Shown here one piece after another: positions 3,859 through 29,157 of a stretch of 64,000 bases of DNA. Each line of letters starts with the position of its first letter. The stretch's first letter is position 1. Made by a program: the position numbers and the translations under genes. This DNA comes from Gammaproteobacteria bacterium (GTDB lineage: Bacteria > Pseudomonadota > Gammaproteobacteria > Enterobacterales > Psychrobiaceae): assembly GCA_013214945.1 (NCBI GenBank), contig JABSRT010000005.1:1-64000 (forward strand). Direction: 5' to 3'. The notes beneath the pieces were generated by a model that saw only the letters and a list, made by a program, of their open reading frames with translations, was not told the DNA's origin and did not search any database.

Positions 3859-5157
3859 TTACTGTTCCCAGTAAGCTTCTTCTAAGCTGTCTTCTTTTTC
3901 AGGTAAGCCTTTAGACAAACGCGGCGAATGCTGATTTAGCATTTCAAAACTCACGCGGTTAGAGTACTTACAAATTTGGGCAAATGACGAATACGCCAAC
4001 GCTGAGCTGGTGTGCTTGCTTGAGGTCGGGAAATACTGCTTATGGTAGTGATTAGCCGCCATGTCATGTAGCAAGGCTGACAATGCGCCGTCTCCTGCGC
4101 CATTGGTATTTTTAATCGAAGCGGGGCCACCCATGTAAGGTTCAATATGAGAAAAAACCATCAGCGGTGACTTACAATCGGCTTTACGCATTGGGCGACT
4201 AAATTCGTACTTGTTAAAGTCACTGATGCTGCCCGTACGCAATGGATGAGTTGTTTCGCGTTTACTGTCTTGCTCGGTAAACCCTGACAGGTATAAACCA
4301 TCAGCGCCCGCAGTTAATAATACTAAGTCTGCGACCTCAAGTGTTTTAACGCTGGCTTTTAACAAATCACTTTCGCCGGTTAGGGTTTCAGCTTCTTCTT
4401 CATTCATCGCCACGACACTAATATGCTTGTCGATAAAGTTTAACCACCACTGGGGATCTTGCGCAATAATTTGCTTGGTACCCAAACTCAGTACCACGGG
4501 TACGTTATTGTCGTTGGCGTATTGAACTGCCGTCATCGTGGCTTGATCCATGGTGTCATCGTCATTAACTCGCATCAGATAAGCGCTAATTACCAACGCC
4601 GAAGACGACTTAACCACATCAATATTAATCGACTCGCTGGTTAGTGCATTTGACAAACCGCTGTTAAACGCAAAAGTACGTTCGCCATCAGCGCAGATTA
4701 ACGTGAAACAACGGCCGATAGGACCGGAGACTGGTTGCAATAAATCCAAGTCAACTTTCGAGCTGGTGTTACACAAGTATTTGTATGCATAACCTTTAGC
4801 ACGAATAGGGTCGCTAATAACGCCAAACAACACACTGCGATCATCGGATAAAACCGAGTAATTGTGCAGGGTATTGCCAATGGTGCCGCCAGCATATTCA
4901 TGGCTAATCAGATCTTTTTCAACCAATTCGTTGTAGATCTTCTCCGCTTCTTTGTCATCAACTAAGCAAGAGGTCCCTTTTATTAAACCAAATTTTTCAA
5001 GAAAAGACTCATCGATTGGCGCTTCTATATCAACCAAGGTTTGATCAATACCACAAATATGGCTTTGAACAGGCTGGAGCTTCAATGTCTCGTTACGCGC
5101 TTTTCGCGTAGCGACAGGAAAGTAATGCTTTAACTTACGTTGACCGGGAAATTTCAT
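3859..5157 (-). CDS. gsk: Inosine-guanosine kinase
   Basis: Phosphorylates inosine and guanosine to IMP and GMP in purine salvage (cytoplasm). The protein is a PfkB/ribokinase-type sugar kinase of 432 residues and matches E. coli Gsk almost throughout: MKFPGQRKLKHYFPV at the start, GIDQTLVDIEAPIDE, GGTIGNTLHNYSVL, the kinase signature NTNGAGDGALSALLHD with the catalytic Asp, and the C-terminal NQHSPRLSKGLPEKEDSLEE. The start at 5157 is chosen because MKFPG is the E. coli start; an ATG two codons upstream is possible. The gene stands alone, with its own terminator on the left. An imperfect inverted repeat lies just upstream of its start. Confidence 0.95.
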   Translation of the reverse strand: MKFPGQRKLKHYFPVATRKARNETLKLQPVQSHICGIDQTLVDIEAPIDESFLEKFGLIKGTSCLVDDKEAEKIYNELVEKDLISHEYAGGTIGNTLHNYSVLSDDRSVLFGVISDPIRAKGYAYKYLCNTSSKVDLDLLQPVSGPIGRCFTLICADGERTFAFNSGLSNALTSESINIDVVKSSSALVISAYLMRVNDDDTMDQATMTAVQYANDNNVPVVLSLGTKQIIAQDPQWWLNFIDKHISVVAMNEEEAETLTGESDLLKASVKTLEVADLVLLTAGADGLYLSGFTEQDSKRETTHPLRTGSISDFNKYEFSRPMRKADCKSPLMVFSHIEPYMGGPASIKNTNGAGDGALSALLHDMAANHYHKQYFPTSSKHTSSALAYSSFAQICKYSNRVSFEMLNQHSPRLSKGLPEKEDSLEEAYWEQ

Positions 5158-23342: not shown

Positions 23343-23371
23343 TTGACATGATTAAAAAATAGTCATAAGTT
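23343..23371 (+). promoter_or_regulatory. Candidate promoter of the phasin-phaC unit
   Basis: A perfect TTGACA at 23343-23348 is followed, after 17 bp, by TAAGTT as a weak -10. The start point would fall close to the PhaR-like site at 23381. Confidence 0.5.
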
Positions 23372-23380
23372 AACCTCCTA

Positions 23381-23395
23381 TGTTGCAACGCAGCA
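23381..23395. promoter_or_regulatory. PhaR-type operator, copy 1
   Basis: TGTTGCAACGCAGCA fits the pattern TGTTGC-N3-GCARCA shared by the other three sites of this cluster. It lies just downstream of the candidate promoter of the first phasin gene, where a bound repressor would block initiation. Assignment to PhaR is by context and by similarity to TGC-N3/4-GCA sites known for PhaR of other proteobacteria. Confidence 0.6.
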
Positions 23396-23444
23396 ATTGC
23401 CCCGTATATCGAGTAGCCGAGATAATTTTAAATAAGGATATGTC

Positions 23445-24188
23445 ATGACCGCAGCTAAAACGACTTCGAACCAGCCATTTTTAGATCCACTTTCACAGAT
23501 GAGTGAGATAACTCAAACCCTATTTACCGATATCTTAAATAGCCAAAGTCAATTATTTTTAAATTCGATTGAACAAGCTTCTGCTCAGTCGGGTGAATTA
23601 TTTAGCGCTGGTGATCCCCAAACAATTTTTGAATTACAACAAAGTAATATGCGCGATTATCAACAACAACTAAGTCAATATTCGACGGCTATTACTGACT
23701 GTTTTGCTAAAGCCCAAAGTAATTATCAAAATACCTTCACCAGTTCGTTACTTGCTACTAGCTTATTCGAGCAACCAACACCCCAGACCCACACTGCCGA
23801 AGATGTCAGCCCGGCCCAACAGCCAAGCACAACTAAAGCGCCCGCTAAAGCAGCAAGTAAAAAAACTGCAGCGACTAAACCTGCAGTAAGCAAACCTGTA
23901 GTAACTAAAGCAACAGCGGCTAAAGCTGTTAGCAAGCAAACTGCGGTAAAGGAAGTCGTTAAAGCAGAAAGTTCTGTCAAAACAAGTGCACCGGTCCCAA
24001 GTAAAGCGACCGACACTAAAACCCAAGTCGCTAAGCCAGTCACTGAAAAATCAGCTAGCACAACCCCGGCTGCTGTTGTTGCTAAAACACAGCCGAGCGT
24101 GAATGCTAAAGCGAACACCGCAACGGTAAAAAAATCGAAGCCAGTGACCAGCGAACCGACTAAAAGTTCTACGACTAAAATCAATTAA
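23445..24188 (+). CDS. Phasin-like protein with long basic Ala/Lys/Thr tail (PhaF-like)
   Basis: A 247-residue protein that probably coats PHA granules. Residues 1-105 look like a phasin_2 helical domain (FLDPLSQMSEITQTLFTDIL, NSQSQLFLNSIEQASAQSG and QQSNMRDYQQQLSQYSTAIT). From about 115 the sequence is almost only Ala, Lys, Thr, Ser, Pro and Val in repeats such as TKAPAKAASKKTAATKPAVS, resembling the histone H1-like tail of PhaF, which in Pseudomonas binds DNA and helps share granules at division. An AAGGAT ribosome site lies 7 bases before the ATG. It is first gene of a unit leading to phaC. The basic tail makes exact homology hard to prove; the DNA-binding role is inference. Confidence 0.75.
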   Translation: MTAAKTTSNQPFLDPLSQMSEITQTLFTDILNSQSQLFLNSIEQASAQSGELFSAGDPQTIFELQQSNMRDYQQQLSQYSTAITDCFAKAQSNYQNTFTSSLLATSLFEQPTPQTHTAEDVSPAQQPSTTKAPAKAASKKTAATKPAVSKPVVTKATAAKAVSKQTAVKEVVKAESSVKTSAPVPSKATDTKTQVAKPVTEKSASTTPAAVVAKTQPSVNAKANTATVKKSKPVTSEPTKSSTTKIN

Positions 24189-24200
24189 TAGCGAGCAGCA

Positions 24201-24305
24201 ATGCGTAAACTAAGTGATGATGAGCCCCATCGTATTAAGATTAATCAATCACCCAAAGTCGCTAAAATGATCAAGAATATTAAGCTGATGAAACCATTGG
24301 TTTAA
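24201..24305 (+). CDS. Possible 34-residue basic protein
   Basis: A short ORF starts at ATG 12 bases after the phasin stop and ends 66 bases before phaC. The product begins MRKLSDDEPHRIKINQS and ends MIKNIKLMKPLV; it has seven Lys and two Arg, no membrane segment. A GCGAG stretch upstream may serve as ribosome site. Its tight place in the phasin-phaC unit and even codon use favour a real gene, but I know no family for it and it may be chance. Conservation in relatives would decide. Confidence 0.4.
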   Translation: MRKLSDDEPHRIKINQSPKVAKMIKNIKLMKPLV

Positions 24306-24371
24306 TATTATGCAAGTCACTTATCTCAAGGTAAGTGGCTTTGTGACATTAAATACACGGAGTAAGTAGTA

Positions 24372-26090
24372 ATGGATGATAACGCCACCAATCAAGAATT
24401 TTTAACTTTTATCAATAACGAAACAAATAAAATGCTCGCTAGCCTGTCATCAGAGCAATCACAACAAGCTTTTAGCCAATTTAATCAACAGTGGATGGCG
24501 CTTTCTCAGCAGCATTTATCTGATCCGGCCGCATGGCTCAATAATGTAGTCGAATTTCAGCAGCAACAAATGAACCTATGGAATCAATTGCTATCCCAGC
24601 AAAGCCAGCAATCGACGCCATTAGCAGAGCCGCCTGCTTTGCAAAATATTCAAAACCAGATCTTTGACTACATTAAAAAATCTTATGTCATGACATCTAA
24701 CATTTTGGCTGATGCCGCCAGTAAATCAGGCTTAGAAGATCATGAACAAGCGCAGTTAGATTTCTTTATTAGCCAATACTCAGATGCAATGTCTCCTGAT
24801 AATTTTGCCTTAACCAACCCCGAAGTTATTCAAGAAGCGATTGATACCAATGGTCAAAGCTTAGTTAATGGTTTAAAAAACTTGGTTGAAGACGTCGAAA
24901 AAGGACGGATCAGCATGACCGATGAAAGCGCCTTTACCTTAGGAGAAAACATCGCAGTGACCCAAGGAGCAGTTGTTTATGAAAATGAATTATTTCAACT
25001 GTTGCACTTTAAACCCCAAGGTAAAAATGTTCACCAAAAGCCAACGTTAATTATTCCTCCATGCATTAATAAATATTACATCCTGGATTTACAGCCTCAC
25101 AATTCGTTTGTAAATTATTGTGTTAATCAGGATCAAAATACCTTTTTAATTTCGTGGGCTAATCCGACTAAAGAGCAAGGCAATATCCATTGGGACGATT
25201 ATATTGAACAAGGGGTGATTAATGCGGTTAATATCGTAAAAAGCATCAGTGATAGCAAAGACATTAATGCGGTAGCTTGGTGTGTTGGCGGCACTTTACT
25301 CGCTACTGCGCTCGGCGTGCTGGCTAATCGTAAGGATAAATCGATTAATAGTGCGACCTTCTTAACTACCATGCTCGATTTTAAAGATCCTGGTGAAATA
25401 TCAGTCTTTATCGATAAAGCACAAATAGACAAGTTGTTAGCAGAAGCTAAAGCTGACGGCGTATTTAGTGGCCGTAAATTAGCCACCGCGTTTAATTTAC
25501 TGCGTTCGCGCGATCTTATTTGGTCTTATGTGATAAACAATTATCTTAAAGGTAAGCAACCTACCCCATTTGATATTTTATATTGGAATGGTGATTCAAC
25601 TAACTTGCCTTATGAAATGTATCAGTTTTACATTACCGAAATGTACCTGAACAATAAATTGTGTCAAAAAGATCAGTTGACGGTTTGTAACGAACCTATT
25701 GATCTCTCGAAAATTGATATTCCGTGTTATTTCCTCTCGACCATTGGTGATCATATTGCGCCATGGAAAAGCACGTTTGCCGGCACTGAGTTAATGAGCG
25801 GTAATATTGAGTTTGTGTTAGGCGCCAGCGGTCATGTTGCAGGTGTTATCAACCCAGTATCGCGTAATCGTCGCCATTTCTGGACCAATGGCACCTTAGG
25901 TCAAGGTGCCGACCAATGGCTAGAGTCTGCGACTAAGCAAGACGGTTCTTGGTGGAGCCACTGGGATGCATGGATCAAACCTCAGGCTGGTAAAAAAGTA
26001 GCTGCACCGGGCTATGGCAGCAGCGACTACCCCGAAATAGAACCGGCACCAGGGCGTTATGTAAAAGTAAAACTTGATGACATGACCTAA
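24372..26090 (+). CDS. phaC: Poly(3-hydroxyalkanoate) synthase, class I
   Basis: Polymerises (R)-3-hydroxyacyl-CoA into PHA at the granule surface. The 572 residues agree with class I PhaC. An N-terminal region rich in Gln (about 1-100, SQQSQQSTPLAEPPALQ) is followed by the PhaC N domain and an alpha/beta-hydrolase core. PPCINKYYILDLQPHNSFVN and FLISWANPTKEQGNIHWDDY are signature blocks. The lipase-like box AWCVGGTLLA places the catalytic Cys near residue 304; the Asp lies in STIGDHIAPWKSTF and the His in GASGHVAGVINPVS. The gene follows the phasin and the small ORF on the same strand; no phaA or phaB for monomer supply lies nearby, so monomers must come from genes elsewhere. Two hairpins end the unit. 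Confidence 0.95.
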   Translation: MDDNATNQEFLTFINNETNKMLASLSSEQSQQAFSQFNQQWMALSQQHLSDPAAWLNNVVEFQQQQMNLWNQLLSQQSQQSTPLAEPPALQNIQNQIFDYIKKSYVMTSNILADAASKSGLEDHEQAQLDFFISQYSDAMSPDNFALTNPEVIQEAIDTNGQSLVNGLKNLVEDVEKGRISMTDESAFTLGENIAVTQGAVVYENELFQLLHFKPQGKNVHQKPTLIIPPCINKYYILDLQPHNSFVNYCVNQDQNTFLISWANPTKEQGNIHWDDYIEQGVINAVNIVKSISDSKDINAVAWCVGGTLLATALGVLANRKDKSINSATFLTTMLDFKDPGEISVFIDKAQIDKLLAEAKADGVFSGRKLATAFNLLRSRDLIWSYVINNYLKGKQPTPFDILYWNGDSTNLPYEMYQFYITEMYLNNKLCQKDQLTVCNEPIDLSKIDIPCYFLSTIGDHIAPWKSTFAGTELMSGNIEFVLGASGHVAGVINPVSRNRRHFWTNGTLGQGADQWLESATKQDGSWWSHWDAWIKPQAGKKVAAPGYGSSDYPEIEPAPGRYVKVKLDDMT

Positions 26091-26123
26091 CCAGCGAGAT
26101 ATTTATCTCAGCCAGTAATATCT

Positions 26124-26159
26124 TGTTATAGCGATGTTATTCCTAACATCGCTATAACA
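26124..26159 (+). terminator. 16-bp perfect hairpin after phaC
   Basis: TGTTATAGCGATGTTA and its exact inverse flank a TTCC loop, followed by GCTTTT. It starts 34 bases past phaC. The T-run is short, so it may act as an mRNA 3' stabiliser with the true terminator just after it. Confidence 0.65.
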
Positions 26160-26168
26160 GCTTTTAAG

Positions 26169-26199
26169 AAGCCGGTTTGCACTCCAAGCCGGCTTTTTT
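26169..26199 (+). terminator. Intrinsic terminator of the phaC unit
   Basis: AAGCCGGTTTG, loop CACTC and CAAGCCGGCTT pair over about 11 bp (one G-U) and are followed by TTTTTT. Confidence 0.85.
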
Positions 26200-26245
26200 G
26201 TGCACATCATTTGGTGTTTTTCATCTCACACTTAACCATGGTCTT

Positions 26246-26450
26246 ATACCAATTTTATTAAAGATATGATCTTGTTGTGCGCAGGGGGAATCAGCAAGAA
26301 CAAGGCGCTCGAATGACCAATAGCGGGCTATTGGGATTGAGAGGTACGCAGTTGTCTACAGGACGTAGATAAGGGGCGCGAGCAGGACGCGGTAGCCTTA
26401 TTGTTGATTTAAACTAGCACAAGTGGTCAATTATTAAATGCAATTAGTAT
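26246..26450. repeat. About 205-bp intergenic repeat-like element
   Basis: The stretch begins ATACCAATTTTATTAAAGAT and ends with AATTATTAAATGCAATTAGTAT, an imperfect inverted copy, so it looks like a small non-coding element with terminal inverted repeats. Its inside holds the 18-bp palindrome CCAATAGCGGGCTATTGG and a GC-rich part (about 26276-26400) unlike the AT-rich flanks. No ORF. Such 'ATACCAA...' elements occur in many copies in marine Alteromonadales genomes (from memory); only a genome search can prove copy number. Confidence 0.5.
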
Positions 26451-26525
26451 TATTAATCGTTTGTTTTCTAGGTACGTTACTGAGCTCAGATTTTTCAACT
26501 TGTCCTAGGGCTACACACTAAGCAC

Positions 26526-26559
26526 AAAAAAGCGGGGGCATATTATGCTCCCGCTTTTT
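26526..26559. terminator. Bidirectional terminator
   Basis: AAAAAGCGGGGGCA, loop TATTA and TGCTCCCGCTTTTT give a 14-bp stem with one G-T pair and T-runs in both directions. On the minus strand it would end phaZ, about 100 bp past its stop. Confidence 0.8.
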
Positions 26560-26572
26560 GACTAAACTACTT

Positions 26573-26638
26573 ACTTAAACAAATACTTAAACAAATACTT
26601 AAACAAATACTTAAACAAATACTTAAACAAATACTTAA
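26573..26638. repeat. 12-bp tandem repeat, five copies
   Basis: The unit ACTTAAACAAAT is repeated five times without error from 26573 to 26632, followed by a partial sixth copy. It lies between the phaZ stop codon and its terminator. It does not code. Perfect copies point to recent slippage. Confidence 0.9.
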
Positions 26639-26658
26639 CTAACGTTTTAACTAAGGTA

Positions 26659-27876
26659 TTAACTATGATCTTGTATAAATTTCTTGATCATCGGTCCAAT
26701 CTCTTGCCTAAAGCGACGACCGTTAAAGATACCGTAATGGCCAACATCAGATTGCGTATGATGATGTTTTTTATCTGCTGGGATAGCACTTAATATTTGA
26801 TGCGCGGCCTGGGTTTGGCCATCTCCAGTAATATCATCATGTTCACCTTCAATAGTGAGCAACGCCACTTTAGTTACTGCGGTGCTATCAACCAGCTTGC
26901 CGAGATATGTCATTTCGCCTTTCGGTAAATTATGTTCAATAAAAACATGCTTAACCGTATCGAGATAAAATTTCTCGGGCATGTCCATTACCGCAAGATA
27001 TTCATTATAAAAGCGGCGGTGATTTTCAGCACTATCGCCATCGCCTTTGATTAAGTCACCAAAAAAGGAGAAGTGTTTATTGATATGGCTATCGAGATTC
27101 ATACTCATGAAACCACTCAATTGAATAAAGCCAGGATAAACCCGCTGACCAGCGCCGGCAAACTTGTCAGGCACGGTGCAAATCACATTTTTTTCAAACC
27201 ATGCAAGCTCTTTGTCGACCGCGTAGTTATTAACTTCGGTAGGACTAACACGGGTATCAACTGGGCCGCCAAGCAATGAGATTGATTTAGGCTGATAACT
27301 GACATTTTGCTGTGCCATCACCGAGGTTGCGACAATAGTCGGCACTGTCGGCTGACACACGGCAATAATATGGAAGTCGTCGCCTAAAAACTGGCAAAAC
27401 TCCATCACATAAGTAATATAATCGTCGAATGAGAAGTCACCATCACTTAATGGCACATCACGAGCGTTGATCCAACTCGTAATGTAGACATCGTGATCAC
27501 TTATAAAATGCTCAACCGTGCCACGTAACAGGGTTGAATAATGGCCCGATAACGGCGCAATAAGCAGCACCTTAGGATGATCATAATTTCCGTTTCGTTT
27601 AAAATTAATTAAATTACAATAAGGTTTGGCTACTGCTATCTCTTCTTTAATCGCAATTTTGTTGCCATCGATATCGGCGAAATCAATATTAAATTCTGGT
27701 TGGCCGTATTCACCGGTATGGCGCTCAACGAGCTCAGCAGCAGCTGCAACCGTTTTACCAGCAAAGCTGTAGTTTAACGGTGACCATGGTTGATTACACA
27801 TCGATTTTAACTGTTTCATCCACACATTAAGCGGTGAAATAGCAGCTGTATAGTTTTGCTGCATTTGATATAACAT
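26659..27876 (-). CDS. phaZ: Intracellular PHA depolymerase
   Basis: Mobilises stored PHA to hydroxyacids. The product of 405 residues begins MLYQMQQNYTAAISPLNVWM, like PhaZ1 of Ralstonia (MLYQ...), so the start at 27876 is preferred over the upstream in-frame codon at 27897. Shared blocks: PKVLLIAPLSGHYSTLLRGT, VYITSWINARDVPLSDGDFS, the nucleophile Cys in IIAVCQPTVPTIVA (about residue 175), GGPVDTRVSPTEVNNYA, RVYPGFIQLSGFMSMNLDSH and the His in SDVGHYGIFNGRRFRQEI. Ribosome site TGAGGAT lies upstream. It is transcribed towards phaC and divergently from phaR, with a PhaR-like site 112 bp upstream. Its 3' side carries a tandem repeat. Confidence 0.94.
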   Translation of the reverse strand: MLYQMQQNYTAAISPLNVWMKQLKSMCNQPWSPLNYSFAGKTVAAAAELVERHTGEYGQPEFNIDFADIDGNKIAIKEEIAVAKPYCNLINFKRNGNYDHPKVLLIAPLSGHYSTLLRGTVEHFISDHDVYITSWINARDVPLSDGDFSFDDYITYVMEFCQFLGDDFHIIAVCQPTVPTIVATSVMAQQNVSYQPKSISLLGGPVDTRVSPTEVNNYAVDKELAWFEKNVICTVPDKFAGAGQRVYPGFIQLSGFMSMNLDSHINKHFSFFGDLIKGDGDSAENHRRFYNEYLAVMDMPEKFYLDTVKHVFIEHNLPKGEMTYLGKLVDSTAVTKVALLTIEGEHDDITGDGQTQAAHQILSAIPADKKHHHTQSDVGHYGIFNGRRFRQEIGPMIKKFIQDHS

Positions 27877-28181
27877 TTTAACATCCTCAACAATCAATTG
27901 GCCATAGTCTTACACTGGGCACAAAACGCGCTGCTAATGATAGAGAGCCAACTACCGGATACAAGTTAATCACAAGCATAACAAAATTGTGCAGCGCAAC
28001 ATAGATTGATATTACACGTTTAAACGCCCAAAAATCAATCAATAATCTAATCTTATTAATTTCCCGCGAGAAAAGTGAGCAGTTTCAATGGCTAAATTGT
28101 ATTAAACATCGCCAATTACATTGGTATTTTGACCATTGGAAGGTAAACTGGGCGTTACTGAGTAAAAAAGAGATAATAGCT
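27877..28181. other. Divergent control region between phaZ and phaR
   Basis: 305 bp without a gene; holds one PhaR-type site. A GAGAGCC/GGCTCTC-like symmetry was not found. No clear -10/-35 pair could be assigned with confidence in either direction. Confidence 0.5.
27987..28001. promoter_or_regulatory. PhaR-type operator, copy 2
   Basis: TTGTGCAGCGCAACA keeps the core TGC-AGC-GCA of the other copies and one full GCAACA half-site. It lies in the divergent gap and could serve phaZ, phaR or both. Confidence 0.55.
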
Positions 28182-28655
28182 ATGTCAGAGTTGAGGATTA
28201 TTAAGAAATATCCTAATCGACGTTTGTACGACACAGAACAAAGCAAATACATTACCTTAACCAAAGTTAAAGAGTTGGTGATCCAAGGCTGTAAGTTCAA
28301 AGTGATCGACTCAAATAGTGCTGAAGACTTAACCCGCGCGATTTTATTACAAATTATTATGGAAGAAGAGTCTCAGGGTAAGCCTATCTTTAGTGAAAAC
28401 TCGCTAGCCCATCTCATTCGTTTTTATGGTGGTAACGCCCAAAACGTATTTGGCCAATACTTAGAAGAAAGCTTAAGTGCCTTTAGCGGCCAGCAAGATG
28501 CCTTTTCGTCAGCGACACAAGTACCAATCAATAATATTGCCGAGATGGCGCAGCAAAACCTCAAGATGTGGAGCAATATGCAAACTGCATTTTTTAAACC
28601 CGGCCCCACCGACGACAAAGATAAAGAAGAAGAAGAAGACGACCACAATAAATAG
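28182..28655 (+). CDS. phaR: PHA synthesis repressor PhaR
   Basis: Repressor of phasin genes that also binds the PHA granule, so that phasin is made only when polymer is present. The N-terminal 60 residues form the PHB/PHA-accumulation DNA-binding domain: IIKKYPNRRLYDTEQSKYIT and LTKVKELVIQGCKFKVIDSN. Then follows the PHB_acc domain (DLTRAILLQIIMEEESQGKP, IFSENSLAHLIRFYGG, FGQYLEESL). The C-terminus is very acidic (DDKDKEEEEDDHNK). 157 residues is a normal short form. It is followed by phaP; operators around the phaP promoter fit its role. Confidence 0.95.
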   Translation: MSELRIIKKYPNRRLYDTEQSKYITLTKVKELVIQGCKFKVIDSNSAEDLTRAILLQIIMEEESQGKPIFSENSLAHLIRFYGGNAQNVFGQYLEESLSAFSGQQDAFSSATQVPINNIAEMAQQNLKMWSNMQTAFFKPGPTDDKDKEEEEDDHNK

Positions 28656-28703
28656 TTAAAATTTCGGTCATACCTGAGAGAAAGTAAGTTAATCCTAAAA
28701 TTG

Positions 28704-28714
28704 GTGCAGCGCAC
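28704..28714. promoter_or_regulatory. PhaR-type operator, copy 3
   Basis: GTGCAGCGCAC repeats the TGC-AGC-GCA core and lies 12 bp upstream of the -35 of the phaP promoter. Confidence 0.5.
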
Positions 28715-28725
28715 AAAAAAAAGAG

Positions 28726-28754
28726 TTGACTATAAATCAACCAGCCCATACACT
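28726..28754 (+). promoter_or_regulatory. Promoter of phaP
   Basis: TTGACT at 28726-28731 and TACACT at 28749-28754 are spaced by 17 bp. PhaR-type sites lie on both sides, the downstream one at the expected start point. Confidence 0.65.
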
Positions 28755-28762
28755 GGGTCTAA

Positions 28763-28777
28763 TGTTGCAGCGCAACA
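28763..28777. promoter_or_regulatory. PhaR-type operator, copy 4 (best copy)
   Basis: TGTTGCAGCGCAACA has perfect TGTTGC/GCAACA arms around AGC. It lies 9 bp after the -10 of phaP, where repressor binding would block transcription. Confidence 0.7.
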
Positions 28778-28815: not shown

Positions 28816-29157
28816 ATGACTGATTTTAACGCACAACTTCAAAAGATGTTTCAGCCTTCAACTCAACTACTAACAGCAAATGCTAAAGTACTTGAAACAG
28901 CACTGGCTCAACAAAGCAGTTTAGTAAGCCAGTTTATTGCTAGTTCTTTAGATTTTAACAAGCAATTGTTAGAGCAAAAAGACTTAGCAAATGTTCAGAG
29001 CTTATCTGAGAAATTTGGTAAAAGCGTAACTGAGCAGGTAACGTCTTCTAATAAAGAAATCGTTGCTGCTATTAGTGCTGCGAACGAACAGTCTTCAAAA
29101 ATTATCAAAGAATTAGTTGAAACTTCTCAGCAATCTTTTGCTCAAGCAGCAAAATAA
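28816..29157 (+). CDS. phaP: Phasin family protein
   Basis: Small amphipathic granule-coating protein. The ATG at 28816 has AAGGAAAT in front and starts MTDFNAQLQKMFQPSTQLLT; the reading frame is open further upstream, but that part contains the promoter and operator. The 113 residues are helical, with Phasin_2 features: Leu/Ala heptads, KVLETALAQQSSLVSQFIAS, LDFNKQLLEQKDLANVQSLS and EIVAAISAANEQSSKIIKEL, ending in FAQAAK. It lacks the basic tail of the phasin upstream of phaC, so the cell has two distinct phasins. Regulated by PhaR by inference. Confidence 0.88.
   Translation: MTDFNAQLQKMFQPSTQLLTANAKVLETALAQQSSLVSQFIASSLDFNKQLLEQKDLANVQSLSEKFGKSVTEQVTSSNKEIVAAISAANEQSSKIIKELVETSQQSFAQAAK

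Follow-up and report, generated by a model that had tools for sequence, protein, structure and literature searches.

Four copies of a known PhaR recognition signal, here called O1 to O4, lie at predicted promoters of the PHA genes in the window, the whole 64-kb stretch of DNA that we analysed. They are very probably operators of the PhaR protein encoded among them, which would repress phasin1-phaC, phaZ and phaP until polymer forms. Since the four copies are found at the switches of these genes, one polymer-sensing repressor probably controls the making, coating and breakdown of the PHA granules, as an earlier note on this DNA had suggested and similarly to what is known from more intensively studied bacteria. 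The synthesis, coat and breakdown genes carry predicted operators, supported by the match to published motifs, the promoter positions and the recurrence in relatives. We computed the identity of the sites, their rarity, their promoter-like position and their recurrence, and judge the result to be a well-supported, ordinary prediction of a known regulon type.

The PHA-region genes in the window are fabA, phasin1, phaC, phaZ on the opposite strand, phaR and phaP. Gene identities are based on Pfam and NCBIfam models above cut-off, with the exception of phaP, which has Pfam support only and no NCBIfam match. The features are as follows, with bit scores of the sites from the weight matrix described below.

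23343..23371, + strand: putative sigma70 promoter of phasin1-phaC, TTGACA-17 nt-TAAGTT, found by eye, with a weak -10 box
23381..23395, no strand: O1, candidate PhaR operator, TGTTGCAACGCAGCA, 19.95 bits, 9 nt past the phasin1-phaC -10 box
23445..24188, + strand: phasin1, a Phasin_2 domain and then a long Ala/Lys/Thr-rich tail (PF09361 3.1e-10, TIGR01841 1.3e-7)
24372..26090, + strand: phaC, class I PHA synthase (TIGR01838 1.8e-197)
26124..26198, + strand: two strong hairpins, the second with a terminal T run, likely the phasin1-phaC terminator (-44 kcal/mol, z -9.55)
26659..27876, - strand: phaZ, intracellular PHA depolymerase (PF06850 8.2e-87, TIGR01849 1.2e-161)
27987..28001, no strand: O2, candidate PhaR operator of phaZ, TTGTGCAGCGCAACA, 19.89 bits, 7 nt past the phaZ -10 box
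28009..28038, - strand: putative phaZ promoter, TTGATT-18 nt-TAATAT, found by eye and conserved in the alignment
28182..28655, + strand: phaR, PHA-responsive repressor (PF07879 2.1e-29, PF05233 4.7e-13, TIGR01848 147 bits)
28702..28716, no strand: O3, candidate PhaR operator, TGGTGCAGCGCACAA, 23.27 bits, ending 9 nt short of the phaP -35 box
28726..28754, + strand: phaP promoter, TTGACT-17 nt-TACACT, from the promoter scan (9/12 matches) and conserved in the alignment
28763..28777, no strand: O4, candidate PhaR operator, TGTTGCAGCGCAACA, 21.44 bits, 8 nt past the phaP -10 box
28816..29157, + strand: phaP, small phasin (PF09361 1.1e-9)

The phaZ profile scores were computed on the longer ORF 26659-27897, with the ATG read at 27876, and the phaP ATG at 28816 is conserved as the start in two orthologues. 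That PhaR is encoded among the sites, at 28182-28655, held on closer reading: the DNA-binding domain PHB_acc_N and the PHB_acc domain are both present above their curated cut-offs, the 147 bits for TIGR01848 compare with a cut-off of 109.45 bits, and the gene sits inside the PHA cluster with the phasin and synthase genes. A sequence search for solved-structure relatives of PhaR found none, the matches being four designed repeat proteins at E 0.04 or worse. The C-terminal end of PhaR is a strongly acidic tail (DDKDKEEEEDDHNK).

The four sites were reread at 23381, 27987, 28702 and 28763, where the earlier note had placed them, O3 having been quoted there as its inner 11 bases. O4 has perfect palindromic arms. 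An exact core, TGCAGCGCA, is common to three of the sites, as had been observed, and has no further copies in the 64-kb window; at least three copies also occur in 13 of 100 shuffles, so on its own the common core carries little weight. A loose test, allowing up to three mismatches in the 15-mer, gave seven matches in the window, a count that includes O4 again on its other strand; seven were reached by 3 of 100 shuffles, which is mildly unusual.

Clearer separation came from the genome scan that the earlier note had proposed, run with the palindromic 15-mer TKNTGCRNYGCANMA, which was drawn up with the S. meliloti consensus known and the R. eutropha motif not yet known. It occurs at seven places in the 4,699,491-base genome against three for the backward pattern, and four of the seven are O1 to O4, within 5.4 kb, which makes the palindromic pattern highly unusual. 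Under uniform placement the chance of at least four of seven copies in 5435 bases is 6e-11, for an interval chosen after the fact. Two of the other three places are inside ORFs, at C3:70293 (15.2 bits) and C8:31216 (15.1), and the third, C13:78293 (16.9 bits), is outside the ORFs listed and, by eye, near a lipoprotein-like gene.

The weight matrix is based on 16 S. meliloti sites whose PhaR binding is rated 'Efficient' in Table 3 of PMC12542648. It takes no site from the window; only the background base composition was set near that of the window. O3, O4, O1 and O2 hold ranks one to four in the 64-kb window, with 23.3 to 19.9 bits, and the next-best place reaches 14.7 bits. Markov random sequence gave 5 places with at least 19.89 bits in 15 Mb, which amounts to about 1.6 per 4.70 Mb. 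The matrix score alone is no proof, because strong places are also found inside genes elsewhere, one of them, the coding place C10:37452, with 21.5 bits and thus level with O4. O1 to O4 are all intergenic if phaP begins at ATG 28816; mechanically called ORFs that begin with TTG or GTG extend over O3 and O4.

Other search patterns were tried and set aside. The loose TTGCNNNGCAA is too common to be informative (271 places against 89 backwards), and TGTTGCNNNGCAACA with one mismatch finds 36 places against 22 backwards and misses O2 and O3. The S. meliloti IUPAC consensus is weak genome-wide, with 56 places against 34 backwards, and finds two of the four sites (O3 and O4). Fifty of its 56 places were listed and 25 of those scored, picked by eye mostly for TGC...GCA cores; among these 25, the places with at least 18.6 bits besides O3 and O4 are C10:37452, C3:55240 and C6:168279, all inside long ORFs. 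For monomer supply, nothing above 13.1 bits was found in the first 8 kb of the contig with the best acetoacetyl-CoA reductase candidate (C20:1651); for the next two candidates by score, scores over 10 kb each did not exceed 10.3 and 14.9 bits.

The sites also agree with the motif deduced for R. eutropha (Cupriavidus necator), YTKNTGCRNYGCANMAR (PMC12849132). O1 to O4 match its inner 15 bases with zero mismatches; with the two outer bases included, O1, O2, O3 and O4 have 1, 2, 0 and 1 mismatches by eye, where up to three were allowed in the R. eutropha motif study (PMC12849132). The Rhodobacter sphaeroides PhaR motif, quoted as CTGCNNNGCAG in PMC12542648, has its half sites three bases apart like the sites here, whose arms are mostly TTGC/GTGC as against CTGC.

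The promoter scan listed the phaP promoter only, the phasin1 and phaZ promoters being absent from its list, and it gave 17 promoter-like sites overall against 18.3 in shuffles. Because the scan is no richer than shuffles, the case for the promoters rests on conservation. At the phasin1 promoter the TTGACA is perfect and the -10 box poor; in the alignment TTGACW-N17-TAAATN is alike in the congeners G005 and G002 and weaker in G003. TTGATN-N18-TANNAT is found at phaZ in five of five aligned sequences, the window counted in, and TTGACT-N17-TANANT at phaP in three of three (the window and two orthologues). O1, O2 and O4 lie 7-9 nt past the -10 box, at expected transcription starts, as the earlier note suggested for the best copies; these starts would fall near 23378-23381 (phasin1), 28003-28000 (phaZ, - strand) and 28761-28763 (phaP). 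O3 is placed directly before the phaP -35 box. The same arrangement, with an operator at the expected start, thus recurs at three promoters, of phasin1-phaC, phaZ and phaP, and suits repression by blocking RNA polymerase. At phaP the operators form a pair around TTGACT-N17-TACACT, O3 before the -35 box and O4 at the expected start.

The sites recur in relatives. An O1 counterpart is present in all three relatives aligned, the O2 site accompanies the phaZ promoter in five of five aligned sequences (window included), an O3 counterpart is found in G005 and G003, and the O4 site in three of three aligned sequences. Three congeners, G005, G002 and G003, have sites ahead of their phasin1, phaZ and a phasin gene. 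In G005 the full set of four is found (a single site at phasin1 and at phaZ, two at phaP), and G002 has one each at phasin1, whose Phasin_2 score of 22.0 bits is below the 24.9 cut-off, at phaZ and at the phasin beside phaR. G003 has sites before phasin1 and phaZ, and its phaP orthologue, on a different contig of the draft, has two sites. Another pair in G002 (L116, 4315-4403) lies at a Phasin_2 protein on a contig other than that of phaR, and this phasin is likely a regulon member outside the PHA cluster. The spacing of paired sites at phasin promoters is 61 bases in G000, 66 in G005, 66 in G003 and 68 in G002. G006 has a different gene order and stands outside the alignments; its first site has phaC on one side and on the other a divergent protein whose Phasin_2 match, at 21.7 bits, stays below the cut-off, and its second precedes a phasin and then phaZ.

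On a wider scale, 21 of 27 phaR loci, from 26 different contigs (L031 and L038 being one and the same), have at least one TKNTGCRNYGCANMA match and none has the backward pattern; the match is missing from the other six. Among the loci that come from other named genomes, seven were looked at in more detail (L039, L040, L041, L043, L046, L054 and L058), and in the four run against Pfam (L040, L041, L054 and L058) a phasin directly follows the site. L041 additionally has an exact TKNTGCRNYGCANMA at 4051-4065, flanked by phaE, which encodes a class III synthase subunit (PHA_synth_III_E), and a thiolase gene; in that locus the class III synthase and the supply of monomer may be under PhaR control as well. 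PhaR was found in 31 of the 295 genomes of the order. We examined 25 phaR loci, from the 26 order genomes with PhaR outside the genus, and seven have a site of at least 17 bits within 1.5 kb, against 0 of 25 backwards; in the remaining loci the phasin may be encoded at another place or the motif may be a different one. Within the genus, phaR and phaC occur together in five of nine genomes. In the other four (G001, G004, G007 and G008, two of them only about 80% complete) no phaR and no class I phaC turned up, so the PHA genes may be gained and lost together. Counting the motif over whole genomes fails to separate those with PhaR from those without: genus members with PhaR have 7, 8, 8, 11 and 11 copies of TKNTGCRNYGCANMA, those without it 4, 5, 8 and 11, and the pattern is present once or more in 286 of the 295 genomes in the order.

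The mechanism that we propose takes binding, repression, polymer sensing and release from homologues; polymer binding by PhaR and its resulting release from DNA are stated for these in PMC12542648 and PMC12849132. Without polymer, PhaR on O1, O2 and O4 would block RNA polymerase at phasin1-phaC, phaZ and phaP; a second contact at O3, ahead of the phaP -35 box, would make repression of phaP tighter. With the onset of PHA formation PhaR would move from the DNA to the nascent granule, and the coat, synthase and depolymerase genes would be derepressed together. Control of the synthase would need transcription from the phasin1 promoter to continue through phaC. No + strand terminator between phasin1 and phaC appears in the terminator scan, which is weak evidence because the scan also missed the hairpins after phaC (26124..26198), as stable as which none of 200 shuffles was. 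A moderate hairpin lies between the two genes, at about 24314-24341 (z -2.25, 6 of 200 shuffles as stable) and a strong double hairpin with a T run follows phaC, so phasin1 and phaC are likely co-transcribed.

The layout of O3 and O4 is that of the R. eutropha phaP1 site pair, where footprints placed one site directly upstream of the -35 box and one around the start (PMC12849132). Unlike in the R. eutropha phaP1 system, phaZ and the phasin-phaC unit also carry candidate operators here and none is assignable to phaR. For S. meliloti PhaR (AniA), efficient in vitro binding at a phaZ site (Table 3) and repression of the depolymerase are stated in PMC12542648. Since that phaZ site is efficiently bound, depolymerase control is already known elsewhere. 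The S. meliloti regulon shares with the predicted one the core, the paired sites at phasins and the phaZ site; it reaches EPS and central metabolism, whereas here exact TKNTGCRNYGCANMA occurs at promoters only in the PHA cluster, plus one weaker intergenic place. Together this suggests that one motif is kept across alpha-, beta- and gammaproteobacteria, with the phaP layout as in R. eutropha. Our search, mostly outside the subscription literature, found no published PhaR regulon for this group, and the present sites supply, at the level of single bases, candidates for the operators, promoters and targets of PhaR in an alteromonad-like group of gammaproteobacteria. They also make testable whether PhaR controls synthase and depolymerase together or the coat protein only.

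Of the site in the phaZ-phaR gap, the presence and the zero-mismatch sequence stand; its use by phaR does not follow, as nothing supports phaR control and O2 is best read as a phaZ operator. The gap that holds O2 is divergent, with phaR starting 180 nt away from the site and phaZ 110 nt away, and binding of PhaR at its own promoter region is reported for C. necator and P. denitrificans in PMC12542648, which also describes such a self-operator as present in some species and probably not conserved. It is nevertheless unlikely that O2 serves phaR, instead of or besides phaZ: the counterpart is 41 nt (L032) and 52 nt (L033, where phaZ is two overlapping ORFs in that draft) from phaZ and more than 1 kb from phaR in both, and O2 is 7 nt past a phaZ-strand -10 box that recurs in five of five aligned sequences. 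With no operator assignable to phaR found in the window, the data do not support phaR autoregulation. Somewhat less likely again is that PhaR acts partly as an activator or that O3 is an activating site, as in R. eutropha, where PhaR activates phaP3 (PMC12849132); the activating sites described there are clearly upstream of the promoter, whereas O1, O2 and O4 are at the expected start.

The motif alone cannot name its protein, and the pattern has similar whole-genome counts in genomes that lack PhaR, as would be expected if another palindrome-binding regulator read the sites and the nearby PhaR were a coincidence. We consider this very improbable, given that the sites are identical with PhaR sites tested in other species, are located at PHA promoters and recur at phasins on contigs other than that of phaR. 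Hardly credible are chance palindromes in AT-rich intergenic DNA, for which the mild enrichment in loose matching could be cited: four of seven genomic copies fall in 5.4 kb, the same four rank highest by an independent matrix, and they are conserved at the same promoters in relatives, where by chance none would be kept. Repression by PhaR of the genes next to the sites is the reading that we keep. A more far-reaching version is tentative and, on balance, rather doubtful: that PhaR represses the synthase (via the phasin1-phaC operator) and the depolymerase, and not itself, forming an all-or-none, high-turnover storage switch. If true, the first polymer would remove PhaR and lead to more synthase, a positive feedback, with simultaneous induction of the depolymerase. 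Such a switch would differ from the R. eutropha circuit, which is described as centred on the phasin.

Some further observations concern the cluster itself. The tail of phasin1, in which Ala, Lys and Thr abound, is about 140 residues long; we take it to resemble histone-like tails, and it could tether granules to DNA. Between phasin1 and phaC lies a small ORF of 34 residues (24201-24305, MRKLSDDEPHRIK...), for which the phasin1-phaC gaps in L032 and L031, about 59 and 68 bases, are too short. Immediately downstream of phaZ, at 26572-26638, TACTTAAACAAA is repeated in tandem, with 5.6 perfect copies. A dispersed repeat of about 206 bases (26245-26450), between phaC and phaZ, occurs at at least 36 genome places at E 1e-3 or better, with 40 of 55 candidates scored; its best other copy is 95% identical over the full length, and it could be a non-autonomous or REP-like element.
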